DNA of 64,000 nt from Myxococcus guangdongensis (GTDB lineage Bacteria > Myxococcota > Myxococcia > Myxococcales > Myxococcaceae), in contig NZ_JAJVKW010000002.1 in NCBI RefSeq assembly GCF_024198255.1, forward strand, positions 558,001 through 622,000. The letters are read 5' to 3'. Below are positions 50,016 through 61,601 of the stretch, one piece after another. The notes below the pieces were generated by a model, which had not been told where the DNA came from, ran no database searches, and was given only the letters and a program-made list of their open reading frames with translations. The position numbers were made by a program, and so were the translations under genes. Position 1 is the first letter of the stretch. Every line of letters begins with the position of its first letter.

Positions 50016-50924
50016 CTACGGCGTGCCGTCGCTGTTGCCGCCGCGCTTGAACAGCTTGCCCAGCGCGACGAACAGCATCACCACGCCGGCGATGACGACC
50101 TTCTTGCCGGCCACCAGCACGGCGAGCAGGCCCTTGAAGAGGCCCGCCTTGGCGGCGACCTTGCCCGCCACCAGGCCCGCGACACCGTACGCGGCGACGC
50201 GGCCGGTGCTGGGGTCGAAGTCCTCGTAGCGGTGGCCCGCCTGGAACTCGGTGAAGGCGAGCACCTGCTTCATGTCCTTCTCCACCTGGTGCAGCGCCAC
50301 CATGCTGGAGACGGCGTTGAGGACCAGGACGCCCTCCTTGCCCAGCACGCGGACGGCGTAGTTCAGCGTGTGCTCCTTGTTGCCACCGAAGGACAGCTCC
50401 TGGGCCCAGTACAGCTTGCGCGTGCTGGCGTCGTAGTGCGGGGTGGCGGCCCAGCCGACCAGGTCCACGGCCTCGAAGCCCGCGCGGGTGCGCTCCTTGT
50501 TCTCCTCGCGGGTGCCCTCCTGCATCTCCTCGAGCAGCTCCGCGTAGTCGATGCTGGCCGCGTCCTTGTCCTCCACGTGGCCGTCATCGTCGTACTGGAT
50601 GACCACGCCCCAGCCTTCCGGTGCGTCCACGCTCACGTCCGAGGGGACCAGCATGCCCAGCGTCTTCGTGCCCGGAGGATTGCCCCACACCTCCACGAGC
50701 ACCTTCTCCGCGTCCTCGGGCGACAGGTAGCCGAAGTTTGCGGGGACGTTCATCTTCGCCAGGCCGTCGCCCAGCACCACCACGCCCGTGCGCAGGTGCA
50801 ACTCGGGCAGCGCCGGGGCGACCACCTCCGCCTCCTCGGCGGCCTCCTGCGGCTCGGGCGCCTGGGCCCACGCACTCACTCCCACCAGCAACAACACCGC
50901 GAACAACCCACGTCGACACTGCAT
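50016..50924 (-). CDS. DUF2167 family membrane-anchored protein
   Basis: This 302-residue protein has a signal peptide (LFAVLLLVGVSAWAQA), a soluble domain and a C-terminal hydrophobic segment (VVIAGVVMLFVALGKLF) preceded by Gly/Ala-rich helices. The pattern LYWAQELSF and DLVGWAATPHYD matches DUF2167, conserved proteins of unknown function. The ATG at 50924 follows GGAGGGGG. A promoter-like TTGACG/TAGGTT pair lies about 125-155 nt upstream. The function is not known. It is not linked to the neighbouring operons. Confidence 0.8.
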   Translation of the reverse strand: MQCRRGLFAVLLLVGVSAWAQAPEPQEAAEEAEVVAPALPELHLRTGVVVLGDGLAKMNVPANFGYLSPEDAEKVLVEVWGNPPGTKTLGMLVPSDVSVDAPEGWGVVIQYDDDGHVEDKDAASIDYAELLEEMQEGTREENKERTRAGFEAVDLVGWAATPHYDASTRKLYWAQELSFGGNKEHTLNYAVRVLGKEGVLVLNAVSSMVALHQVEKDMKQVLAFTEFQAGHRYEDFDPSTGRVAAYGVAGLVAGKVAAKAGLFKGLLAVLVAGKKVVIAGVVMLFVALGKLFKRGGNSDGTP

Positions 50925-51050
50925 TGAGCGCCCCCTCCAGGGATTCCAGACACAATCGGGCGGAGGGACGTGAAGCATCAGCGAGGCTGACGATGCCGCA
51001 TGCGGCTCGACGCACGCGCACGGCGGGCCCCCGGGCCCGAAAGGCGCGGC

Positions 51051-51080
51051 AACCTAGCGGCGCGTCGGAGCACGCGTCAA
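51051..51080 (-). promoter_or_regulatory. Putative promoter of the DUF2167 gene
   Basis: Reading leftward, TTGACG (51080-51075), an 18-nt spacer and TAGGTT (51056-51051) form a good -35/-10 pair. Between it and the gene, a GC hairpin (51024-51039, CGGGCCC/GGGCCCG) lies in the expected leader. Confidence 0.5.
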
Positions 51081-51105
51081 ATCAGCGCCGGTGCGGGCGA
51101 AGGAC

Positions 51106-51693
51106 TCAGGCAGCTTCGGTTTTCGGGACAGCCACGGGACGCACGAGAAAGTCGCGCGCGGTCGTGACGGCGCGCGTGTCCTCGAGCACCTGACCGGGAG
51201 TGTTGGCGTGGCCGATGAGCGCGCCCCGCCAGTGCATCTCCAGGTAGTCCGCGCTGAGCTGGAGGCTCTTCAACAGGGGCTCGGCGACGACGTCATCCTC
51301 CTCGGAGGAGTGGGAGGTGACCAGCGAGAGCACCTTGCCGCGCATGCGCTCGCGGAAGCGCAGCTCGGTGATTCTCAGCCAGTGGGACCAGTGCTCCAGG
51401 TAGGACACCGCGTTGGCGGGCAGGCCGTACCAATAGACGGGCGCGACGAAGACGAGCTCATCGGCGGACACCGTGCGCTGGGCGAGGTCCCACAGCTCGG
51501 GGCTCAAGGGCTGCGTGTAGCCACCGGGGGTGTGGCGCAGGTCCTTGAAGATTTCACCCCGGTAGCGCTCCAGGTTCACCCACTCCGCCACCGTGCCAGG
51601 AGGCAGGGACTCCGCGGCCTTGCGGGCGAGCTGCTCCGCGTTGCCGTTCTCACGGGCACTGGAGAGCAGGAAGAGGAGTCGACGGGCGTGCAT
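51106..51693 (-). CDS. NAD(P)H-dependent FMN reductase/flavodoxin-fold oxidoreductase
   Basis: This 195-residue flavodoxin-like protein starts LLFLLSSARENGNAEQLARK (FMN phosphate loop). VFVAPVYWYGLPANAVSYLE is the second FMN contact, and the family length of about 190 residues fits NADPH-dependent FMN reductases and quinone reductases. It probably reduces flavin or quinone in the cytoplasm. A perfect 8-bp inverted repeat (51721-51741) lies 28 nt upstream of its ATG and may be an operator. Confidence 0.85.
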   Translation of the reverse strand: MHARRLLFLLSSARENGNAEQLARKAAESLPPGTVAEWVNLERYRGEIFKDLRHTPGGYTQPLSPELWDLAQRTVSADELVFVAPVYWYGLPANAVSYLEHWSHWLRITELRFRERMRGKVLSLVTSHSSEEDDVVAEPLLKSLQLSADYLEMHWRGALIGHANTPGQVLEDTRAVTTARDFLVRPVAVPKTEAA

Positions 51694-51720
51694 GGCGGAG
51701 GTCCGGGAGAAGGAGCGACC

Positions 51721-51741
51721 GCGCCTTCATAACGAAGGCGC
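51721..51741. promoter_or_regulatory. 8-bp inverted repeat upstream of the FMN reductase
   Basis: GCGCCTTC (51721-51728) and GAAGGCGC (51734-51741) form a perfect palindrome with a 5-nt centre, 28 nt upstream of the start codon at 51693. It could be a repressor site or a leader hairpin. Confidence 0.4.
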
Positions 51742-51816
51742 TCGCGTCTCGCACGGGCCGAACTCGTGCGCACATCGAGGCGCACCCGTCGGACAGCCAA
51801 GGCACGGCGAGCGGAA

Positions 51817-52152
51817 CCAGGGTCCGAGGGCTCGCGCACCTCGCATCGCAACGAGAGCCCCGGACGAATAGGCTTCGCCGTCGGCGTTCGGCTTCACCCA
51901 GTCCAGGCGCGAGAGCGCGAGCCAGGACCCGAGGTCTCACACACCTCGCGCCTCCGCGAGAGCCCGGTCGCCACGCTTCGCCGTCGGCGTTCGGCTTCAC
52001 CCAGTCCAGGCGCGAGAGCGCGAGCCAGGACCCGAGGTCTCACACACCTCGCGCCTCCGCGAGAGCCCGGTCGCCAAGCTTCGCCGTCGGCGTTCGGCTT
52101 CACCCAGTCCAGGACCCGAGGGCTCGCGCACCTCGCGTCTCCGTGAGAGCCC
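51817..52152. repeat. 103-bp tandem repeat array, about 3.5 units
   Basis: Two adjacent 103-bp units (51872-51974 and 51975-52077) are identical except at the last base. A third unit (52078-52152) lacks an internal 19-bp segment, and a diverged half-unit (51817-51871) precedes. Each full unit carries a 6-bp hairpin CTCGCG-CCTC-CGCGAG (51945-51960 and 52048-52063). In the third unit one stem base is changed to a G-T pair. Reading frames across the array are not conserved because 103 is not a multiple of 3, so it is non-coding. The 473-bp gap (51694-52166) holds no gene. Confidence 0.85.
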
Positions 52153-52166
52153 TCCGGCGCGCCGAC

Positions 52167-53300
52167 TCACTTGCCGCAGAAGTGCGCGACGGCGCGGGCC
52201 AGCACGGCCTCGCAGCGAATCAGGTCCTCGATGGGCACATGCTCGCCCGTCTGGTGAGCCACCCGGATGTCGCCAGGGCCGAACACCACGGCCTCCGCGC
52301 CCAGCTCCGTCATCTGCGGCGCTTCCGTGCCGAAGGGCACCGTGGTGGACGCGTTGCCGCTGGCCTCGGCCAGGAAACGCACCACCTCCGCGTCCGCGCG
52401 CGTGTTCACGCCCCGGTCCGTGCGCAGCACACGGATGTGCGCCTCGTAGGCGGGCTCGTCGCGCACCAGCTCCTGGCGAATGGACTCCAGCAGCTCGGAC
52501 ACGCGCTCGGTGGGCTGCCCCGGGATGGGTCGCCACTCCACCGTGAAGCGACACGAGCCCGGCAGGATGTTCTTCGCCTTGCCGCCCTGGATGACGCCCA
52601 CGTTCACCGTGGTGAACGGCGGCTGGAAGCCCTCGTCGAGTTCCTCGCGCAACACCGTGGTGGCCAGTTGCTCCAGCCGGTGCAGGAAGCGGCCCGCGCG
52701 GAAGATGGCCGACGCGCCCGTGTCCGGATACGCGCTGTGCCCCTCCTTGCCGAGCACCTCCACCTCCGCCAGGCAGTAACCCTTGTTCGCGCGCACCGGC
52801 GTGAGCTTCGTGGGCTCCCCCACGATGGCGTGCCGCGCGCGGCCCAGCCCCGCGGCCACCAGCTTCTTCGCGCCGATGAGGCCAATCTCCTCGTCGGCGG
52901 TGAGCACCACCATCAGCGGCGCGGAGAGCTTCTCGGCCCGCTCGGCGGCGTGCAGCGCGCACGCGATGAAGCCCTTCGTGTCACAGGCACCGCGCGCGTA
53001 CAGCTTGCCGTCCTTCTCCGTCAGCTTCAGCGCGTCCGTCCACGCCGCGTCGTACGGCACGCAGTCGGAGTGCCCCACCAGCGCGAGCGCCGCGCGCCCC
53101 GTGCCGCCCTTCACCGCGACCAGGTTCACCTTCTCCACACCCGCGTCATCCGTGTAGCGCTGGCGCTCCGAGCTGAACCCCGCCTTCTCCAGCCGTGCCT
53201 GCGCGTAGTCGATGAGCGGGGCGTTGGGTCGAGCGGACGTGGTGTCCATCGCCACCAGCTCCGCCAGGGTGGCCCGCAGCGCGGGCAGCGTGTCGCTCAT
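52167..53300 (-). CDS. argE: M20-family acetylornithine deacetylase-like amidohydrolase
   Basis: This 377-residue metallopeptidase has the M20 zinc ligands and catalytic residues: GHSDCVPY (H77, D79 region), GACDTKGF (D107), ADEEIG (E137, E138) and HQTGEHVP near the end. Length and sequence fit ArgE, which removes acetyl from N-acetylornithine in arginine synthesis. It is 57 nt downstream of hutF on the same strand. Related M20 enzymes act on other N-acyl amino acids, so a role in N-formylglutamate handling is possible but unproven. The ATG at 53300 fits the family N-terminus. Confidence 0.88.
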   Translation of the reverse strand: MSDTLPALRATLAELVAMDTTSARPNAPLIDYAQARLEKAGFSSERQRYTDDAGVEKVNLVAVKGGTGRAALALVGHSDCVPYDAAWTDALKLTEKDGKLYARGACDTKGFIACALHAAERAEKLSAPLMVVLTADEEIGLIGAKKLVAAGLGRARHAIVGEPTKLTPVRANKGYCLAEVEVLGKEGHSAYPDTGASAIFRAGRFLHRLEQLATTVLREELDEGFQPPFTTVNVGVIQGGKAKNILPGSCRFTVEWRPIPGQPTERVSELLESIRQELVRDEPAYEAHIRVLRTDRGVNTRADAEVVRFLAEASGNASTTVPFGTEAPQMTELGAEAVVFGPGDIRVAHQTGEHVPIEDLIRCEAVLARAVAHFCGK

Positions 53301-53357
53301 GAAGACTTCCTCCGTCGTGGCGTCATGCCATCGCCCGGCATCAGGCGCCAGCCCCCG

Positions 53358-54740
53358 TCATCGATACAGCGAATGCGCGAGCGTCTGGAAGGCGCGCCCG
53401 CTCTCCTCCGCCAGCGGATGCACCCCGTCCCGGACCACCAGCCGTCCAGCCACCGCCACCTCGCGCACCGCCGACTTCTCCGCGCCCAGGACGATGGAGA
53501 CGAGCAGCGACTGCGGCGACGCGCCCACGAGCGATGGATGCCCCAGGTCCACCGTAAAGAAGTCCGCCAGCGCGCCCGGCGCCAGCGTCCCCGTGGACAG
53601 CCCCAGACAGCGCGCACCATCCGCGGTGGCCATGTCCAACAGCCGCGCCCCCAGGCCGGAGACCTCGCCACCGCCCGGGTCCAGGACCGAGCGTCGCAGC
53701 CGGGCCAGCCGCAGGTGCCCCTCGAGCTGACGGGCCTCGTCCAGCAGGTCCACGTGCGCCTGACTGTCCGAGCCCAGGCTGATGCGCGCCCCCGCCTTCA
53801 CCAGCGCGTCCGCGGGGACGATGCCGTCCCCCAGGTTGCGCTCCGTGGAGGGACACGCGCACACCGTCGCGCGAGCGGCGCCCAGCATGGACACCTCCTC
53901 GTCCGTCAGGTGCACGCCGTGCACGGCGGTGAAGCCCGGCCCCAAAAGGCTCAGGTCCGACAGCAGCTCCACCGGACGCCGGCCGTACTCCGCGAGGCTC
54001 GCTTCGATTTCCTTGGGCTGCTCGGCGACGTGCATGTGCACGGGGAAGCCCCGCGTCTTCGTGACCGCGGCCAGCCAGCTCTTCGGCACCGCGCGCACGC
54101 TGTGGGGCGCGAGCCCCACGCTCACCGCCGCGTCCCCCTTCACCTCGCTGGCGAGCGACTCCGCCGACGCGAGGAACGTGTCCACGTCCGGGTCGATGAA
54201 GCGCCGCTGACGGGGATTGGGCGCCACCTGGAAGCCCGCGCGCGCATACCCCACGCGGAGCAGACAGATGCGCAGGCCCGCGTCCCGCGCGGCGCGGATG
54301 ACGGCCTTGGCCAGCACGTTCCGGTCCGCGTAAGGCGTGCCGTCCTGCTGGTGGTGGATGTAGTGGAACTCGCCCACGGTGGTGATGCCGGCGAGCGCCA
54401 TCTCCACGAAGACCTGCCGGGAGGCCACGTAGACGTCGTCAGGCCCCAGGGACTCGGCGGCGCGATACATGGCCTCGCGCCAGCTCCAGAAGTCATCCGC
54501 CTCATGCCCGGCGGCCACGTACTCGGTGCGCCCGCGGATGAGCCGCTGGAACGCGTGGGAGTGGCCATTGACGAGCCCCGGCAACAACGCGCGGCCTCGC
54601 AGCCGCACGACGCTCGCCCCGGAGGGCACGGAGGCCGCCTCGAGGATACGGCCGTCGGCGCCCACGGCCAGGGCGCCCCCTTCGATGAGCCGGCCTCCCA
54701 CGTATAGGAAGTCCGGCTGGTAGACAGTGATGTCGCTCAC
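53358..54740 (-). CDS. hutF: Formimidoylglutamate deiminase
   Basis: This 460-residue amidohydrolase has LLPGLVNGHSHAFQRLI (metal ligands H60 and H62), the family-typical FWSWREAMYR and HVAEQPKE, and GSDSQAHVDLL for a further metal ligand. HutF converts N-formimidoyl-L-glutamate to N-formylglutamate and ammonia in histidine degradation. The GTG at 54740 begins VSDITVYQPDFLY; the longer frame upstream is in non-coding DNA. No other hut gene is nearby. The M20 gene follows 57 nt later and may be co-transcribed. Confidence 0.88.
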   Translation of the reverse strand: MSDITVYQPDFLYVGGRLIEGGALAVGADGRILEAASVPSGASVVRLRGRALLPGLVNGHSHAFQRLIRGRTEYVAAGHEADDFWSWREAMYRAAESLGPDDVYVASRQVFVEMALAGITTVGEFHYIHHQQDGTPYADRNVLAKAVIRAARDAGLRICLLRVGYARAGFQVAPNPRQRRFIDPDVDTFLASAESLASEVKGDAAVSVGLAPHSVRAVPKSWLAAVTKTRGFPVHMHVAEQPKEIEASLAEYGRRPVELLSDLSLLGPGFTAVHGVHLTDEEVSMLGAARATVCACPSTERNLGDGIVPADALVKAGARISLGSDSQAHVDLLDEARQLEGHLRLARLRRSVLDPGGGEVSGLGARLLDMATADGARCLGLSTGTLAPGALADFFTVDLGHPSLVGASPQSLLVSIVLGAEKSAVREVAVAGRLVVRDGVHPLAEESGRAFQTLAHSLYR

Positions 54741-54806
54741 CCCGCCGAGCGTACGCCAGCGGACCGGGCCACGCAGCAGCCGTGACACGGTCCACCCACG
54801 TCGCTG

Positions 54807-56342
54807 TCAGCGCCCGAACTCCGCCAGCTTCCAGCCTTCGTCAGGAGCCGGATGATTCGTGTTGTCATCCGCGCCAGGACGCCCCAGGCCCCGGTGCACG
54901 GCCGGCGCGGAGGCGTTCACCGAGCCCACGTAGAACACGCCGTGGTACCCCTCCGAGTTCACCGAGTCCCACGTGTGCACGAAGTAGCGCTCGCCGTTGT
55001 TCTTGCCCTTCGTCTCACGCACGCCGCAGTCCAACCGGTCCCGCTTCCCCTGGCTGTCCACCGAGCAGATCCACGCCGTGCCGCTGTCGTACGCCATGTC
55101 CAGCGCCACCACGTCGTCCAGCTGCTGCTTCAGCAGCAGCCCCATCGGCCGGTGGTCCTTGTTCCACGGCAGGCCCTTCTTCGTGCGCGAATGGATGTTG
55201 CCCGACAGCACCACGTAGAAGCGCTTCGGCGCGGACTCCACCTGATGAATCAGCGTGGCCGCCATCGCGTCTTCACGCTGCTGCCCGTTCGCCTTCGGGT
55301 GGTCGAACACGACGACGTCCACGTCCAGACCCTGCGAGCGCAGCTGACGCAGTTGCTCCAGCATGTTCGCCATCGCCTCGCTGCCGCGACCGTCCGGATA
55401 CGGGCTGCGCCAGAACGGAGCCTCCATCAGCTTCAGCCAGTCACCCTCCTCACCCTGGCTGTCGAGGAACGCATCCACACGGCCCTGGTTCTCCAGCGGC
55501 AGCTCCAACCCCACCGTCACCGGCAGCCCGGCCACGGCCGACTGGCAGGACGTCTGGGCCACGAAGCGCGGCACCTCCTGCGTGCCGTGAAGCTCTCCCA
55601 ACAGGAGCATCGCGCCCGGCTTCGCCTGCTTGCCCAGACCGATGATGGGCAGGCCGCACTCGATGGCCACCTGCGACGGGGCTTCCTTCGCGTTGGGCGC
55701 CTTGGCCACCTGCACCGGCTTGGGCGCGTTCACTTCCTTCGCCAGCTTCGGCGCCACCTCCCGGAACACCCGCCACTCCATCACCAGGTCGCGCTGTCCC
55801 TGCGCCGACTCCGCGAAGAAGGAGTTCTCCCCACGAGGCGCCGCGATGACCTCCTCCCAGTCCTCGGAGCTGGTCAGCGGCGCGCTCTGCGGCTGGGTCG
55901 GCTCGACCATGTAGTCATCCTCGCTCTTCCCCGACATCTCGCTCCTGGGCCCCATGCCCCAGGCCCGGGTCGGGGACCAATCCACCTGGTTCCCCGAGTT
56001 CGCCAGCGTCTTGTTCTGGCTCTTGGTGATGCGGAAGATTTGCAGCTTGCTCGTCGTGGGCGTCTCCCGCCGACCCACGACCATGTAGCGGTGGAAGAAG
56101 CCGGAGACCTTGGAGCCGCCGAACTCCTGCCGCCACTCCGTCTCCAGCACCCGACTGCCTCGGTCCTCGCGGAAGGGCAGCTTGTTGCGGGTGAAGAACT
56201 CCCGGACCTCCGGCCACATCTCGTCCAATGGACGGTCGTAGATGGCCTCCCGGTCCGGAATCTCCAGGTCACTGCGGTGAGCCGCGCACCCCAGCCCCAC
56301 CCATGTCGACACCAACATCACCGCGTAAAGAGCCGAGCGCAT
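54807..56342 (-). CDS. Tandem Tiki/ChaN-like lipoprotein, copy A
   Basis: This 511-residue lipoprotein has a signal peptide ending VGLGC (Cys19). An N-terminal domain (about 20-170) has a conserved DREAIYDRPLDEMWPEV and ETEWRQEFGGSK, faintly BamC-like. A C-terminal domain (about 235-510) has GELHG at 249-253, a core Glu at 280 (VGLELP) and GNIH at 381-384. The GxxH...E...GxxH layout is that of the Tiki/EreA/ChaN-like superfamily of metalloproteases and hydrolases. Copies B and C follow the same plan. The ATG at 56342 directly follows an 18-bp hairpin that contains its own ribosome site (AGGAGG). Substrate and role are unknown; an outer-membrane or periplasmic hydrolase is likely. Confidence 0.75.
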   Translation of the reverse strand: MRSALYAVMLVSTWVGLGCAAHRSDLEIPDREAIYDRPLDEMWPEVREFFTRNKLPFREDRGSRVLETEWRQEFGGSKVSGFFHRYMVVGRRETPTTSKLQIFRITKSQNKTLANSGNQVDWSPTRAWGMGPRSEMSGKSEDDYMVEPTQPQSAPLTSSEDWEEVIAAPRGENSFFAESAQGQRDLVMEWRVFREVAPKLAKEVNAPKPVQVAKAPNAKEAPSQVAIECGLPIIGLGKQAKPGAMLLLGELHGTQEVPRFVAQTSCQSAVAGLPVTVGLELPLENQGRVDAFLDSQGEEGDWLKLMEAPFWRSPYPDGRGSEAMANMLEQLRQLRSQGLDVDVVVFDHPKANGQQREDAMAATLIHQVESAPKRFYVVLSGNIHSRTKKGLPWNKDHRPMGLLLKQQLDDVVALDMAYDSGTAWICSVDSQGKRDRLDCGVRETKGKNNGERYFVHTWDSVNSEGYHGVFYVGSVNASAPAVHRGLGRPGADDNTNHPAPDEGWKLAEFGR

Positions 56343-56393
56343 CCGCCCTCCTGACATCGCGTTGCAACTACAGGAACGCGAGCAGGAGGGCGG
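56343..56393 (-). promoter_or_regulatory. Ribosome-site-sequestering hairpin before copy A
   Basis: On the minus-strand RNA, CCGCCCTCCTG (56393-56383) pairs with CAGGAGGGCGG (56353-56343). Inside, TCGCGTT (56381-56375) pairs with AACGCGA (56363-56357) around an 11-nt loop. The Shine-Dalgarno AGGAGG lies inside the closing arm and the ATG follows immediately. This suggests translational control. Confidence 0.6.
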
Positions 56394-56408
56394 CCATATC
56401 GTCACGGC

Positions 56409-57908
56409 TCAGCGTGAGGACGCGAGCTTCCCCGTCTCCGGCACGAAGGGATTCTTGCTGCCCTCCTTGCCCGGGCCGCTGTCTCCCACGCGGATGGCCG
56501 GCGCGGAGGCGTTCACCGAGCCCACGTAGAACACGCCGTGGTAGCCCTCGGCATTCGCGGAGTCCCAGGTGTGCACGAAGTAGCGCTCGCCGTTGTTCTT
56601 GCCCTTCGTCTCACGCACACCGCAGTCCAGCCTGTCCCGCTTGCCCTGGCTGTCCACCGAGCAGATCCACGCCGTGCCGCTGTCGTACGCCATGTCCAGC
56701 GCCACCACGTCGTCCAGCTTCTCCTTCAAGAGGAGCCCCATGGGCCGGTGGTCCTTGTTCCACGGCAGGCCCTTCTTCGTGCGCGAATGGATGTTGCCTG
56801 ACAGCACCACGTAGAAGCGCTTCGGCGCGGACTCCACCTGGTGAACCAGCGTGGCCGCCATCGCGTCCTCACGCTGCTGCCCGTTCGCCTTCGGGTGGTC
56901 GAACACGACGACGTCCACGTCCAGGCCCTGCGAGCGCAGCTGACGCAGTTGCTCCAGCATGTTCGCCATCGCCTCGCTGCCGCGACCGTCCGGATATGGG
57001 CTGCGCCAGAACGGGGACTCCATCAGCTTGAGCCAGTCGCCCTCCTCACCCTTGCTGTCGAGGAACGCATCCACACGGCCCTGGTTCTCCAGCGGAATCT
57101 CCAGCCCCACCGTCACCGGCGTCCCCGCCACCGTCACCTGGCAGGACGTCTGGGCCACGAAGCGCGGCACCTCCTGCGTGCCGTGCAGCTCACCCAGCAT
57201 CATCACGGTGCCCGGCTGCGCCTTCTTGCCCAGACCGATGATGGGCAGGCCGCACTCGATGGCCATCTGCGACGGCGCCTCGTTGGCCTTGGGCGCCTTG
57301 GCCACCTGCACCGGCTTGGGCGCGTTCTCCTCCTTCGCCAGCAGCGGCGCCACCTCGCGGAATACCCGCCACTCCATCAAGAGGTCGCGCTGCCCCTGCG
57401 CCGACTCCGCGAAGAAGGAGTTCTCTCCACGAGGCTCCGCGATGACCTCTTCCCAGTCCTCGGAGCTGGTCAGCGGCGCGCTCTCGCCCGGACTGTTCGC
57501 CGGCCTGGCATCCGCATCATTGAACATGGCACGCCCGACGCCCCAGTCGACTTGAATGGACGGGTTCTGCAGCGCCTTGTTCCGGCTCTTGGTGATGCGG
57601 AAGATCTGCAGCTTGCTCGACGTGGGCGTCTCCCGTCGGCCCACGACCAGGTAGCGGTGGAAGAAGCCCGCGACCTTCGAGCCTCCGAATTCCTGCCGCC
57701 ACTCCGTCTCCAGCACCCGGCTGCCCCGGTCTTCGCGGAAGGGCAGCTTGTTGCGGGTGAAGAACCCCCGGACCTCCGGCCACATCTCGTCCAGTGGACG
57801 GTCGTAGATGGCCTCCCGGTCCGGAATCTCCAGGTCACTGCGGTGGGCCGCGCACCCCAGCCCCACCCACGTCGACAACAACATCACCGCGTAAAGAACC
57901 GAGCGCAT
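56409..57908 (-). CDS. Tandem Tiki/ChaN-like lipoprotein, copy B
   Basis: This 499-residue lipoprotein (lipobox VGLGC, Cys19) is closely related to copy A over its whole length. It keeps GELHG, the core Glu in VGLEIP and GNIH. The middle linker (about 125-165) is the most divergent part, while the N-terminal motif DRPLDEMWPEVRGFFTRNK and the C-terminal catalytic residues are conserved. The ATG at 57908 directly follows a hairpin of the same design as in copy A. The gap to copy A is 66 nt. Intact motifs argue that all three copies are functional and not relics. Confidence 0.75.
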   Translation of the reverse strand: MRSVLYAVMLLSTWVGLGCAAHRSDLEIPDREAIYDRPLDEMWPEVRGFFTRNKLPFREDRGSRVLETEWRQEFGGSKVAGFFHRYLVVGRRETPTSSKLQIFRITKSRNKALQNPSIQVDWGVGRAMFNDADARPANSPGESAPLTSSEDWEEVIAEPRGENSFFAESAQGQRDLLMEWRVFREVAPLLAKEENAPKPVQVAKAPKANEAPSQMAIECGLPIIGLGKKAQPGTVMMLGELHGTQEVPRFVAQTSCQVTVAGTPVTVGLEIPLENQGRVDAFLDSKGEEGDWLKLMESPFWRSPYPDGRGSEAMANMLEQLRQLRSQGLDVDVVVFDHPKANGQQREDAMAATLVHQVESAPKRFYVVLSGNIHSRTKKGLPWNKDHRPMGLLLKEKLDDVVALDMAYDSGTAWICSVDSQGKRDRLDCGVRETKGKNNGERYFVHTWDSANAEGYHGVFYVGSVNASAPAIRVGDSGPGKEGSKNPFVPETGKLASSR

Positions 57909-57959
57909 CCACCCTCCCGACATCACGTTCCAGAGCGAGAAACGCGAGTGGGAGGGCGG
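57909..57959 (-). promoter_or_regulatory. Ribosome-site-sequestering hairpin before copy B
   Basis: CCGCCCTCCC (57959-57950) pairs with GGGAGGGTGG (57918-57909), and TCGCGTT (57947-57941) pairs with AACGTGA (57929-57923), around an 11-nt loop. Each stem contains one G-U wobble where copy A has G-C, so pairing is kept despite change. The ribosome site is in the closing arm. Confidence 0.6.
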
Positions 57960-57974
57960 ACATATCGCCCGGAG

Positions 57975-59447
57975 CTACTTCGACGACGCGAGCTTCCCCG
58001 CCTCCGGCACGAAGGGGCTCTTGCCGCCCTCCTTGCCCGGGCCGCTGTCACCCACGCGGATGGCGGGCGCGGAGGCGTTCACCGCGCCCACGTAGAACAC
58101 GCCGTGGTAGCCCTCGGCATTCGCGGAGTCCCACGTGTGCACGAAGTAGCGCTCCCCGTTGTTCTTGCCCTTCGCGTCGCGCACGCCACAGTCCAGCCTG
58201 TCTCGCACGCCCTTGCTGTCCACCGAGCAGATCCACGCCGTGCCGCTGTCGTACGCCATGTCCAGCGCCACCACGTCGTCCAGCTTCTGCTTCAGCAGGT
58301 AGCCCATCGGCCGGTGGTCCTTGTTCCACGGCAGGCCCTTCTTCGTGCGCGAGTGGATGTTGCCCGACAGCACCACGTGGAAGCGCTTGGGTCCCACCTC
58401 CGCCTGGAGCGCCACCGTGGCCGCCATCGCGTCCTCGCGCTGCTGCCCGTTCGCCTTCGGGTGGTCGAACACGAAGACATCCACGTCCAGCCCCTGCGAG
58501 CGCAGCTGACGCAGGTGCTCGAGCATGTTCGCCACGGCCGCGCTGCCGCGCCCATCCGGGTACGGGCTGCGCCAGAACGGCGCCTCCATCAGCTTGAGCC
58601 AGTCGCCCTCCTCGCCCTTGCTGTCGAGGAACGCATCCACGCGGCCCTGGTTCTCCAGCGGCAGCTCCAACCCCACCGTCACCGGCAGCCCCGCGACCAC
58701 GGCCTGACACGCCATCTGCGCCACGAAGCGCGGCACCTCCTGCGTGCCGTGCATCTCGCCCAGCAGCATCACCGTGCCCGGCTGCGCCTTCTTGCCCAGG
58801 CCGATGATGGGCAGGCCGCACTCCACCGCCATCTGCGACGGGGCCTCCTTGGCGTTGGGCGCCTTGGCCACCTGCACCGGCTTGGGCGCGTTCTCCTCCT
58901 TCGACAGGAGCGGCGCCACCTCGCGGAACACCCGCCACTCCATCACCATGTCCCGCTGGCCCTGCCCGGACTCCGCGAAGAAGGCGTTCTCGCCCCGAGG
59001 CTCCGCCAGCCGGTCCTCGAAGTCCTCCACGCCCAGACCCCTCGTCTCCGAGTCACTCGGGGGGGCCAGGTTGCGGCTGACGCCCCAGTCGATCTGCACG
59101 GCCGGGTTCTGCAGCGTCTTGTTCCGGCTCTTGGTGATGCGGAAGATCTGCAGCTTGCTCGACGTGGGCGTCTCCCGCCGGCCCACCACCAGGTAGCGGT
59201 GGAAGAAGCCGGAGACCTTGGAGCCGCCGAACTCCTGCCGCCACTCCGTCTCCAACACCCGGCTCCCCTTGTCCTCGCGGAAGGGCAGCTCGTTCCGGGT
59301 GAAGAAGCCCTGGACCTCCGGCCACATCTCCTCGAGGGGCCTGTCGTAGATGGCCTCCCGGTCCGGGTAGTCCAAATCACTGCGATGGGCCGCGCAGCCC
59401 ATGACGAACAGACCTGCCAACACCGCGACGACTGCGGAGCGCACCAT
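57975..59447 (-). CDS. Tandem Tiki/ChaN-like lipoprotein, copy C
   Basis: This 490-residue lipoprotein has a signal peptide ending FVMGC (Cys18), then AHRSDLDYPDREAIYDRP. The N-terminal domain is close to copies A and B, and the C-terminal domain keeps GEMHG, the core Glu in VGLELP and GNIH. It differs from A and B in the linker. The ATG at 59447 follows AGGAGGCGGC. Its leader has a shorter version of the hairpin (GCCTCC/GGAGGC and AGTC/GACT). It is the first gene of the tandem on the minus strand. Its promoter is likely in the gap above 59447. Confidence 0.75.
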   Translation of the reverse strand: MVRSAVVAVLAGLFVMGCAAHRSDLDYPDREAIYDRPLEEMWPEVQGFFTRNELPFREDKGSRVLETEWRQEFGGSKVSGFFHRYLVVGRRETPTSSKLQIFRITKSRNKTLQNPAVQIDWGVSRNLAPPSDSETRGLGVEDFEDRLAEPRGENAFFAESGQGQRDMVMEWRVFREVAPLLSKEENAPKPVQVAKAPNAKEAPSQMAVECGLPIIGLGKKAQPGTVMLLGEMHGTQEVPRFVAQMACQAVVAGLPVTVGLELPLENQGRVDAFLDSKGEEGDWLKLMEAPFWRSPYPDGRGSAAVANMLEHLRQLRSQGLDVDVFVFDHPKANGQQREDAMAATVALQAEVGPKRFHVVLSGNIHSRTKKGLPWNKDHRPMGYLLKQKLDDVVALDMAYDSGTAWICSVDSKGVRDRLDCGVRDAKGKNNGERYFVHTWDSANAEGYHGVFYVGAVNASAPAIRVGDSGPGKEGGKSPFVPEAGKLASSK

Positions 59448-59497
59448 GCCGCCTCCTGGGAGTCCTTGTCCGGGAGACTAGAACGGAGGCACACGGC
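59448..59497 (-). promoter_or_regulatory. Weaker hairpin at the ribosome site before copy C
   Basis: GCCTCC (59490-59485) pairs with GGAGGC (59456-59451), with AGTC/GACT inside (59479-59476 with 59464-59461) and GCC/GGC outside across a 4-nt bulge. The plan is the same as before copies A and B but with fewer pairs. Confidence 0.4.
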
Positions 59498-59540
59498 TGG
59501 CATATCGCAGCGCAGGCCTACTCCGGGTGCGGGCCCTGGG

Positions 59541-60026
59541 TCAGGCCTGGACCTCCGAGCCCTCGTGCAACGGGGCGCGCTCCTTCTCCCAGGGGCGGGT
59601 CCGGACGGCCTCGCGAATCCACAGGATGTGGCGGCGCTCGTCCTCGCGGTGGCGCTCGATGAGCAGGCGCACGTCGGGGCTCCACTCGAAGCGCAGGGCC
59701 ACGTCGTAGGAGCGGTTCGAGTACTCCTCGTTGCCGAGCATCGCCACCAGCGCGGCCTCGGTGCCCATCATGCTGGACATGGCCGTCAGGCCCTTCATCG
59801 CCGCGCCCTTCAGGTCGGGCTTCAGGTCCAGCGGCGTGCCTCCGAAGTGGTGGATGAAGCCGTTGAGCTCCCGCACATGGCGCACGTGGTCGGCACGGAA
59901 CTCGGCGAGCCGCTCACGCACCAGCGGCTCCGGGATGCGCGCGAGCGCCGCGTCATAGGCGCCCACCGCGTCCGCGTCGAGCTGCGCAAGGCTGCGCAGG
60001 CGTGCCACCTCGGACTTCTCGGCCAT
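59541..60026 (-). CDS. Ferritin-like (DUF2383-type) helical protein
   Basis: This 161-residue helical protein has clustered metal-ligand-like residues: D17/D19, H47, H50, E90, E100-E101 and ERHREDERRH (124-133). The order D..H..H / E..EE / E..H is that of ferritin-like four-helix bundles of the DUF2383/PA2169 type. The ATG at 60026 follows GGAGG. It might store or handle iron, or act as a stress protein. No partner gene is beside it. Confidence 0.7.
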   Translation of the reverse strand: MAEKSEVARLRSLAQLDADAVGAYDAALARIPEPLVRERLAEFRADHVRHVRELNGFIHHFGGTPLDLKPDLKGAAMKGLTAMSSMMGTEAALVAMLGNEEYSNRSYDVALRFEWSPDVRLLIERHREDERRHILWIREAVRTRPWEKERAPLHEGSEVQA

Positions 60027-60146
60027 GTCGACTTCCTCCAAGCCAGGGACCGCGAGCAATGTGAGAAGCCTCTTCCCACGAGCCAACCCGTCCCCCGGTG
60101 CCTCGGCCCGGCCGCCCTGACGCCGAGCAGGCGGCCTGGAGGTTGC

Positions 60147-60464
60147 TCAGGAGCGGGGATGTGCGGGACGCAGCGGCAGCGCGCCCTCACCGCGGGCGCC
60201 ACGGCGCTCGGCGCGGCGGTGCTTCAGGACGATGAGCTCGCCGACCAGCGCGCTCACCAGAATCAGCACGTTGGTCACCACGAAGACCCAGTTGCCCACC
60301 AGCACACTGTAGGTGGTGAAACCCACGGAGGCGGTGATCTGCCCGAGGAAGAGCCACTGCGACACGCCCTTGCTGGAGCCGGTCTTCCACTGCTTGTGGA
60401 TCTGCGTCCCCAACGTCAGCAACAAGATGAAGGAACTGAACCAGCCCACCGCCTCGATGCCCAT
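60147..60464 (-). CDS. SemiSWEET/PQ-loop sugar transporter
   Basis: This 105-residue protein has three membrane helices. FSSFILLLTLGTQIHKQWKT and GSSKGVSQWLFLGQITAS include the PQ-loop-type turn with SKGVS, followed by VGFTTYSVLVGNWVFVV. Length and layout are those of bacterial SemiSWEETs, which dimerise to a facilitative sugar or amino-acid pore. The ATG at 60464 is preceded by GGGAGG about 10 nt upstream. Longer upstream frames lie in non-coding DNA. Confidence 0.85.
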   Translation of the reverse strand: MGIEAVGWFSSFILLLTLGTQIHKQWKTGSSKGVSQWLFLGQITASVGFTTYSVLVGNWVFVVTNVLILVSALVGELIVLKHRRAERRGARGEGALPLRPAHPRS

Positions 60465-60671
60465 GCCGCCGTGCCTCCCGGGTACAGATGCGCATGTGTG
60501 CGGGCACGGCGCCAGCCGCGCATTCCTCGGGGGCTCACAAAGACCCCGCTGTGCCGGCGATGAGGCCAGGGCTCGACGGGTCGCCCGCTCGGAGGGGCGG
60601 TGACGCAGGTGCTCGCCAACGGTGGCGCGGTCGACGTTGCGACGGGCCTCCTGGATGCCGACCGTTGAGCC

Positions 60672-61601
60672 GTGAACCGCGCGCGCACACGACGTCATTC
60701 GACGGGCTCGCTGCGAGCACCACGCGCCCAGGCCGCGAGAACCTCCGCGCCCGCATCACACGCCACGCTGACGCATGGGGACCGCGTCCTCTTCCCCGAC
60801 GCGGGCCTGACGAAGGCGGATGTCTTCGCGTACTACCGCGAGGTCGCGCCCCTGATGGTCCCCGTCCTCGAGGACCGTCCCATCTCCGTGCAGCAGTGGC
60901 CCGCTGGAATCCAGGCACCAGGCTTCTTCCGGCATGGGCTGTCGGGCATCCCCGCGTGGGTGCCCACCCAGCGCGTGCGCCACCTGGACAAGACGCTGCG
61001 CCACGTGAACGTGAACGGCGAGCAGCCCCTGCTGTGGCTCGCCAACCAATCCGCGCTCACGCTCCACATGTGGCTGAGCCGCGCGCCCAAGCTCTCGCAG
61101 CCCGACTTCCTGGCCATGGACCTGGACCCGGGCAAGGGCGGCTGGTCCGACGTGGTGACGGTGGCGCTCGCGCTGCGCGGACTGCTCGAGGAACAGGGCC
61201 TCGAGAGCTACCCCAAGACCTCCGGCAAGCGCGGCCTGCACGTCATGATTCCCCTCGCCCCCGGACACACGTACGCGAAGGTGCAGGCACACGCGGACGC
61301 CGTGGCCCATGCGCTGGAGGAGCGACTGGGTGCGCTGGCCACCACGGTGCGCGGCATCCGCGCGCGCAAGGGCCGGCTGTACCTGGACACGGGACAGAAC
61401 GCGCGCGGCAAGACCATCGTCGCGCCCTACTCTCTCCGGGCCAAGGCGGGAGCGCCCTTCTCCGCGCCCCTGAAGTGGAGCGAGGTCACCCGACGCCTCG
61501 ACCCCGCGCGCTTCAACCTCCGCGCACTCAAGAGGCGCCTGGACAAGGTGGGGGACCTGTTCGCGCCCGCGTTGAAGCACCCACAGCGGCTGCCGGACTG
61601 A
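60672..61601 (+). CDS. Stand-alone LigD-type primase-polymerase domain (PolDom)
   Basis: This 309-residue archaeo-eukaryotic primase-type polymerase has the LigD PolDom motifs. DRVLFPDAGLTKADVFAYY lies near the start, metal aspartates D150 and D152 are in LAMDLDPGKG, and SGKRGLHVMIP (184-194) has H190. The start is a GTG at 60672 with a basic 30-residue N-terminus. In bacterial NHEJ the polymerase domain is usually fused to a ligase; here it is alone. It may fill gaps in double-strand-break repair with a ligase encoded elsewhere. Confidence 0.88.
   Translation: MNRARTRRHSTGSLRAPRAQAARTSAPASHATLTHGDRVLFPDAGLTKADVFAYYREVAPLMVPVLEDRPISVQQWPAGIQAPGFFRHGLSGIPAWVPTQRVRHLDKTLRHVNVNGEQPLLWLANQSALTLHMWLSRAPKLSQPDFLAMDLDPGKGGWSDVVTVALALRGLLEEQGLESYPKTSGKRGLHVMIPLAPGHTYAKVQAHADAVAHALEERLGALATTVRGIRARKGRLYLDTGQNARGKTIVAPYSLRAKAGAPFSAPLKWSEVTRRLDPARFNLRALKRRLDKVGDLFAPALKHPQRLPD

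Follow-up and report, generated by a model that had tools for sequence, protein, structure and literature searches.

Three consecutive minus-strand open reading frames (ORFs) at 54807-59447 of the window, by which we mean the whole 64,000-nucleotide stretch of contig NZ_JAJVKW010000002.1 (positions 558,001 to 622,000) from the soil predator bacterium Myxococcus guangdongensis, encode lipoproteins of the same layout, in which an N-terminal half related to BamC is followed by a C-terminal half with the TIKI/Ere/ChaN fold. The explanation that best accounts for the data, to which we assign a probability of about 0.5, is that the three proteins, called copies C, B and A in the order of their transcription, would be outer-membrane-anchored, metal-independent hydrolases having a BamC-like docking domain and having pseudoenzyme paralogues as partners. 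It is noted that the tandem of three same-layout lipoprotein genes, which had been proposed in an earlier sequence-only reading, is confirmed by the ORFs, by a lipobox in each of them and by amino-acid identities of 79-86% (A-C 79.0%, B-C 84.7% and A-B 86.3%), which are far above chance.

The C-terminal half and its putative active site

The AlphaFold2 model of copy C, built on an alignment of 78 sequences, has a mean predicted local distance difference test score (pLDDT) of 80.5 and a predicted template modelling score (pTM) of 0.78. With this model, Foldseek ranks HopBA1, EreC and BcR135 at the top (E 1.7e-5 to 5.2e-5, probability 1.00), and VIA-align gives Z of 20.1 to BcR135 (2qgm), 19.9 to 3b55, 19.5 to EreC (240 residues aligned, 3.7 A), 13.2 to HopBA1 and 12.1 to ChaN, with the best row outside the superfamily at 8.6. 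Based on the model, the C-terminal half belongs to the TIKI/Ere/ChaN fold superfamily, with its parallel beta-sheet core, and the fold match that had been supposed from the motifs is thus borne out for copy C. A single-sequence phmmer search of copy C against the PDB gave nothing at E<=10, only profiles and folds having worked, and NCBIfam holds no family for copies A, B and C at E<=0.1.

In the available portions of two published studies, the active site of the superfamily is described as two histidines and two glutamates (2His/2Glu) with a nearby basic residue (PMC6254334), and the catalytic residues of EreC are likewise 2His/2Glu and an Arg (PMC7979712). The residues E231, H233, E261, R337 and H365 of copy C match this set, which is present in all three copies. 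The motifs GELH/GEMH, GLELP/GLEIP and GNIH are common to copies A, B and C, in agreement with the earlier claim that the catalytic motifs (GxxH, the core Glu and GNIH) are kept in each of them. For the wider family we collected 158 ORFs from the loci, with the window-region copies (L001-L003) left out and with genome repeats and a few fragments included; 102 of these have all four letters of the 2His/2Glu motif, 39 the last His only and 10 the first Glu and the last His, the other 7 being different or fragments. The spacings H233-E261 and R337-H365 are both 28 in all of the 102 complete-motif ORFs, the same values being given for EreC (H50-E78 and R261-H289; PMC7979712), and a His-Glu spacing of 28 is also given for RRSP (H3902-E3930) and Bcr135 (H85-E113) in PMC6254334, while the Arg-His-equivalent spacing in RRSP is 29 as against 28 in the array proteins and EreC.

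After removal of duplicates and short ORFs, 139 unique C-domains remained, of which 87 have all five letters (EHERH), 49 are pseudoenzymes and 3 are others. In the clade of the array the five letters are kept in 81 of 83 tree rows, one exception being a fragment and the other an Archangium sequence on a long branch (L063) in which only the last His is lost. The conservation of the GxxH histidines and the core Glu in relatives, on which the earlier reading had made its proposal depend, holds within this clade, but the pseudoenzyme paralogues in the same genome, which are without the GxxH His and the core Glu, had been overlooked.

The lipid anchor and the N-terminal half

Each of the three copies has a signal peptide and a lipobox (GCAAH), the mature protein starting with CAAHRSD. 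By the sorting rules for Myxococcus xanthus in the available part of PMC3222651, Lys at +2 directs a lipoprotein to the inner membrane and Ala at +7 to the extracellular matrix, while the outer-membrane lipoproteins are described there as showing no marked conservation of sorting residues. Among the 121 scorable proteins of the 143 unique ones in the family, Lys at +2 occurs in none and Ala at +7 in 7. Because their sorting residues fit neither the inner membrane nor the matrix, copies A, B and C would be outer-membrane lipoproteins by the M. xanthus rules, and the lipoprotein nature that had been proposed is upheld, the predicted outer-membrane direction being consistent with these residues.

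The N-terminal half had been called faintly BamC-like, and the relation is stronger than this wording implied. In the PDB, a profile of the N-domain only (17 sequences) reaches BamC at E=1.8e-5, with BamC making up the top 11 of 14 matches; BamC also makes up the top 11 of 14 matches when all PDB sequences are searched with a profile of the whole family (best E 0.0097) and the top 10 of 16 for a profile of stand-alone N-domain lipoproteins (best E 0.0046), which consists of 5 sequences, 2 of them shared with the 17-sequence profile. With the copy C model, Foldseek returns several BamC chains at probability 1.00 (E 2.5e-3 and weaker), and the VIA-align Z of 8.2 over 94 residues between the N-domain and the first BamC domain is alone not decisive, the KA1 and Flpp3 helix-grip domains being close by at 7.5-7.7. 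That the match reflects a mere common helix-grip fold was considered and rejected, because the matches of the sequence profiles are for the most part BamC. Judged by these profiles, the N-terminal half is a relative of BamC, a helix-grip domain homologous to it.

In the model, residues ~27-181 of copy C align as one BamC-like domain with a low-confidence variable insert at ~110-160, and a conserved helix at ~167-181 ('RDLxMEW') closes the domain. Within the active clade, the insert has a mean conservation of 0.60, compared with 0.81 before it, 0.78 in the next helix and 0.81 in the C-domain. Thus, the middle of the proteins does vary, as the sequence-only reading stated, but the variable part is mostly an insert inside the N-domain and not a linker between the domains.

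The Pfam BamC model (PF06804) exceeds its 25-bit cut-off in none of 59 family genomes, while the E. coli control matches. Below the cut-off there are 5 weak matches in the 59 genomes, the two best lying in stand-alone BamC-like proteins and two others not matching the N-domain profile, and among 78 family members only one is matched (E 0.0063). Stand-alone BamC-like lipoproteins of ~165-190 aa were observed at L112:4080-4622 (G000:C8, in the M. guangdongensis genome itself), L118, L119 and L108:6872-7378, and the M. guangdongensis genome has a second match to the stand-alone profile at G000:C18, of which only the coordinates are known. Every one of the 27 genus genomes has a match to this profile at E 5e-51 or better, and each has another at about 1e-32 to 1e-40, which is still clearly stronger than those of the fused proteins. 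As two tiers of matches lie above the fused proteins, two stand-alone types are probably present per genus genome, their stand-alone nature having been read directly in only a few cases.

Paralogues without the catalytic set

The M. guangdongensis genome contains five further full-length paralogues elsewhere (L004-L008), all of which are without the first His and the core Glu. Across the family, the 49 pseudoenzyme C-domains read DLSRH (35), ELSRH (9), DMSRH (3), DLTRH (1) and ELTRH (1), while the Arg is kept in 138 of the 139 unique C-domains and the last His also in 138. In a maximum-likelihood tree with 140 rows, one branch with a Shimodaira-Hasegawa-like approximate likelihood ratio test (SH-aLRT) value of 99 sets off the pseudoenzymes together with the first domains of the fusion proteins of genome G034 (described below); for this tree the tool warned of long branches (the G034 first domains meeting the pseudoenzymes, and L063). 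In a second tree of 80 rows with a mixture model, which left out the G034 rows except L037 and gave the long-branch warning for L063 only, the pseudoenzymes are still separated from the rest by a branch (SH-aLRT 94). The two trees were obtained by quick searches with no bootstrap and are unrooted, a midpoint root being used for drawing only.

The median ratio of nonsynonymous to synonymous substitution rates (dN/dS) of the C-domain, for pairs that are limited to 70-93% identity and dS <1.2 and are not independent, is 0.35 for the active proteins (2922 pairs) and 0.38 for the pseudoenzymes (188 pairs); between copies A, B and C the pairwise values are 0.22-0.24. The pseudoenzyme model (pLDDT 76.7) keeps the fold, with Z of 20.7 to 2qgm, 19.9 to EreC and 13.0 to ChaN, and its N-domain shows a weak BamC match (Z 7.2), above which Flpp3 ranks at 8.3. 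The pseudoenzymes thus group together, are under purifying selection and have kept the fold. That they are decaying genes was rejected in view of the dN/dS of 0.38 vs 0.35, the uniform replacements (35/49 DLSRH) and the kept fold. Loss of the 2His/2Glu set is not new in the superfamily, PMT being also without it according to the available part of PMC6254334.

Pseudoenzyme genes in tandem or near pairs were seen in L087, L091, L092, L068, L070, L072-L074, L076, L077, L079, L085 and L090, so that genes of the wider family also tend to be duplicated in tandem. A further observation is that a gene encoding a SUFU (Suppressor of fused) domain, L115:7312-7905, lies directly downstream of the pseudoenzyme paralogue L006 in the M. 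guangdongensis genome.

With a threshold of E<=1e-62 to copy C, an active-clade match was found in 60 of the 96 family genomes scanned, and with a threshold of E<=1e-70 to L079 or L065 a pseudoenzyme was found in 50 of these 60 and in none of the 36 genomes without active copies. This distribution, together with the G034 fusions described next, suggests a possible pairing of active copies with pseudoenzymes, the co-occurrence being partly explained by shared ancestry. The genome G034 (6.9 Mb, with 13 family matches) is missed by the co-occurrence thresholds yet holds both domain types: two single ORFs of 946 and 961 codons with no stop (L105:5913-8750 and L108:3892-6774) encode, in this order, a BamC-like domain, a pseudoenzyme-clade TIKI domain and an active-clade TIKI domain.

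Proposed mechanism and alternative explanations

In the mechanism that we propose, H233, supported or tuned by E231, would together with E261 and H365 activate a water molecule, this water would attack the carbonyl of an ester or amide and so cut the bond, and R337 would stabilise the charge during the hydrolysis. Docking to an outer-membrane or envelope partner, perhaps the barrel-assembly machinery (BAM), would be the task of the BamC-like helix-grip domain. The dispersed pseudoenzyme paralogues, which share this two-domain layout, may recognise the ligand or partner of the enzymes and serve as their regulators or binding partners. The copies would have been gained and reshuffled by recombination within the tandem and retained for dose or for small differences in specificity. 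We infer the direction of facing, the docking and the pairing, as well as the hydrolysis itself, for which the analogy is with EreC.

Several points weigh against this explanation. The fold is no proof of hydrolysis, because ChaN, a member of the superfamily, binds haem and PMT is without 2His/2Glu (PMC6254334, available part). The nearest Pfam family is PF04187 (ChaN, Tiki superfamily), to which the three copies score 25.8, 26.8 and 25.4 bits by hmmscan, below the cut-off of 27.7 (copy B scores 31.5 bits in a six-frame search, where neighbours in frame are included), and the Ere model PF05139 has no match in the M. guangdongensis genome at E<=0.01 while matching 3 of 14 control genomes. The helper Glu (E231) stands two residues before the His, as in RRSP, and not three as in EreC (E47-H50). 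At the threshold used, no pseudoenzyme was found in ten of the 60 genomes that have active copies, and four of the active-clade matches at E<=1e-62 span a stop codon. In the active-clade domain of the G034 fusion ORFs, GxxH is changed to GxxQ, and in L105 (the same place as L037), which is the ORF that was scored, His replaces Arg; as the first His is lost, the fusions are no example of a pseudoenzyme linked to a complete enzyme.

An alternative, which we consider unlikely, is that the proteins are haem- or porphyrin-binding lipoproteins like ChaN, the pocket passing haem or iron on and the ferritin-like neighbour taking part in iron handling. The Pfam family closest to the array is that of ChaN, matching 54 of 78 family members at E<=0.01, the ChaN fold is matched at Z 12.1 by copy C and at 13.0 by the pseudoenzyme, and a DUF2383 ferritin-like gene lies directly upstream of the first copy in all 10 Myxococcus/Pyxidicoccus-type records (L038-L047). 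By contrast, the match to the esterases is much stronger (Z 20 vs 12), the clade of the array holds the full 2His/2Glu and Arg set with the EreC spacing, and in all 7 Corallococcus records showing both, hutF stands between the ferritin-like gene and the array.

The BamC homology of the N-domain, the strong matches of the stand-alone profile in all 27 genus genomes and the many paralogues that are without catalytic residues yet under purifying selection would also be expected if the proteins were non-catalytic envelope scaffolds or BAM accessories, in which the work is done by the BamC-like domain and the TIKI domain serves only for ligand binding. This is made rather improbable by the 81 of 83 array-clade rows that keep the five letters, the rest being only the fragment and L063, with its last His lost. 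Similarly speculative, and in our estimation rather doubtful, is a far-reaching form of the hydrolase proposal, in which a private, BamC-derived family of the Myxococcaceae, in part of which the BamC-like domain would bring a TIKI hydrolase to the barrel-assembly site and the dead paralogues would join the active ones in regulated heterodimers, would constitute an outer-membrane quality-control or cargo-processing system in a lineage for which BamC was reported absent. Finally, periplasmic hydrolysis of macrolactone-type antibiotics for self- or cross-protection, as by Ere on erythromycin, is very improbable, since, despite the Ere-type catalytic residues and spacing and the place of EreC and BcR135 among the best fold matches, PF05139 matches only 2 of 78 members, weakly, at E<=0.01 and none in the M. 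guangdongensis genome, and the scanned neighbours are ordinary genes, none biosynthetic for such compounds.

The array, its neighbours and its history

The features are collected in Table 1. For copies A and B an ATG start was chosen over a GTG lying further upstream, and with the chosen starts the intergenic gaps C-B and B-A are 51 bp each. A promoter scan of 50900-61000 found 0 sites with 0.4 expected, and terminator-like sites in the same region number 6 vs 2.7 expected, which we do not use in the argument. The copies adjoin hutF in 18 of 18 records where the array and hutF are both visible, lying all before it in L038-L040, on both sides in L041-L047 and all after it in seven Corallococcus records and one Citreicoccus record. 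A putative ArgE-like peptidase gene (52167-53300, named by eye) is found near hutF and the array in most records; as a guess, its product might finish histidine breakdown.

Table 1. Features of the array and its conserved neighbours in the window
Feature	Position	Strand	Details
Lipoprotein copy C	57975..59447	-	first transcribed, 490 aa
Copy C, predicted layout			lipobox C18; BamC-like domain ~27-181; TIKI/Ere-fold domain ~209-464
Copy C, putative catalytic set			E231, H233, E261, R337, H365
Lipoprotein copy B	56409..57923	-	middle, 504 aa; apparent mosaic, start A-like, last part C-like
Lipoprotein copy A	54807..56357	-	last, 516 aa; C-terminal tail differs from B and C
DUF2383 ferritin-like gene	59541..60026	-	directly upstream of copy C
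hutF, formimidoylglutamate deiminase	53358..54740	-	conserved neighbour

In the 27 genus genomes (that of M. guangdongensis included), at least 2 active-clade matches are present in all and at least 3 in 12, with a maximum of 5; adjacency of the copies was observed only at the loci actually read. The match counts of a separate scan, in which 8 candidates were scored per genome, are lower bounds. The triplication is thus an ordinary tandem duplication and not exceptional, and the survey, with 2-5 matches in every genus genome, does not support the earlier view of three in tandem as a peculiar system. In this connection, the record BNCN01000002.1 (L047), titled Comamonas sp., carries a typical Myxococcus array with its neighbours and is for that reason probably mislabelled or mixed.

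As to how the copies arose, the coding sites that distinguish one window copy from the other two number 134 for C, 106 for A and 45 for B. The C-apart and A-apart sites are strongly clustered (66 switches vs 118 expected, a value as low occurring in 0 of 5000 shuffles), with 33 A=B vs 4 B=C sites in the first 150 nt and 36 B=C vs 8 A=B sites in the last block. Because of this clustering, with A=B at the start and B=C at the end, copy B is, judged by its site pattern, a mosaic of its neighbours A and C. Such a pattern would be expected from gene conversion or from unequal crossing-over between a C-like gene and an A-like one, an alternative being fast local change of the start of C and the tail of A. 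The tail of copy A resembles, by eye, the tails found in M. xanthus (copies of record L046), and the tail of B and C is therefore probably the newer one.

Comparison with known systems and conclusions

The array proteins resemble Ere/BcR135/BcR136 (PF05139; 6xcq, 3b55, 2qgm) in the fold (Z ~20), in the spacings of 28 and 28 and in the Glu just before the first His, but they are only 15-17% identical to them, the Pfam model has no match to the window copies, and they are lipoproteins with a BamC-like domain. Moreover, as the array C-domain has ~255 residues, compared with 408 in the solved chain of EreC, there would be little room for the four-helix minor lobe of Ere. ChaN (PF04187, 2g5g) represents their nearest Pfam family and has the same fold (Z 12.1), while they lie just below the curated hmmscan cut-off and have the extra BamC-like domain; with the TIKI/TraB proteases and RRSP they share 2His/2Glu with a basic residue and the core fold, while they differ in the N-terminal modules and are lipid-anchored. 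Like BamC/NlpB (PF06804) they are lipoproteins, and their N-domain is, by the profiles, homologous to the first BamC helix-grip domain; unlike BamC, they show a single helix-grip domain, which carries an insert, scores too low for the Pfam cut-off and is joined to a TIKI-fold domain. They also occur where BamC was reported absent, a 2012 survey having found none in 41 delta-proteobacterial genomes and having claimed, in the available part of its text, the complete absence of BamC-related sequences (PMC3359395).

In open-licence PubMed Central text, searched mostly as titles and the starts of abstracts, we found no description of BamC-domain/TIKI-fold lipoproteins of this kind and no text with BamC and TIKI together; 'ChaN family lipoprotein' was found there for Bacteroides and not with Myxococcus, and the term 'pseudoenzyme' was not found in that literature on TIKI/TraB proteases.

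Three features are less ordinary than the triplication: the occurrence of a BamC-related domain in Myxococcota, the fusion of this domain to the TIKI/Ere fold, and the large conserved pseudoenzyme branch. The finding joins two families that were not met together in the searched literature, a BAM-complex lipoprotein domain and the TIKI/Ere hydrolase fold, and it questions the published absence of BamC-related sequences from the delta-proteobacteria. An important point to note is that this is a compact family of putative enzymes and pseudoenzymes in genetically tractable bacteria, so that the catalysis, the docking and the pairing proposed here are directly testable.

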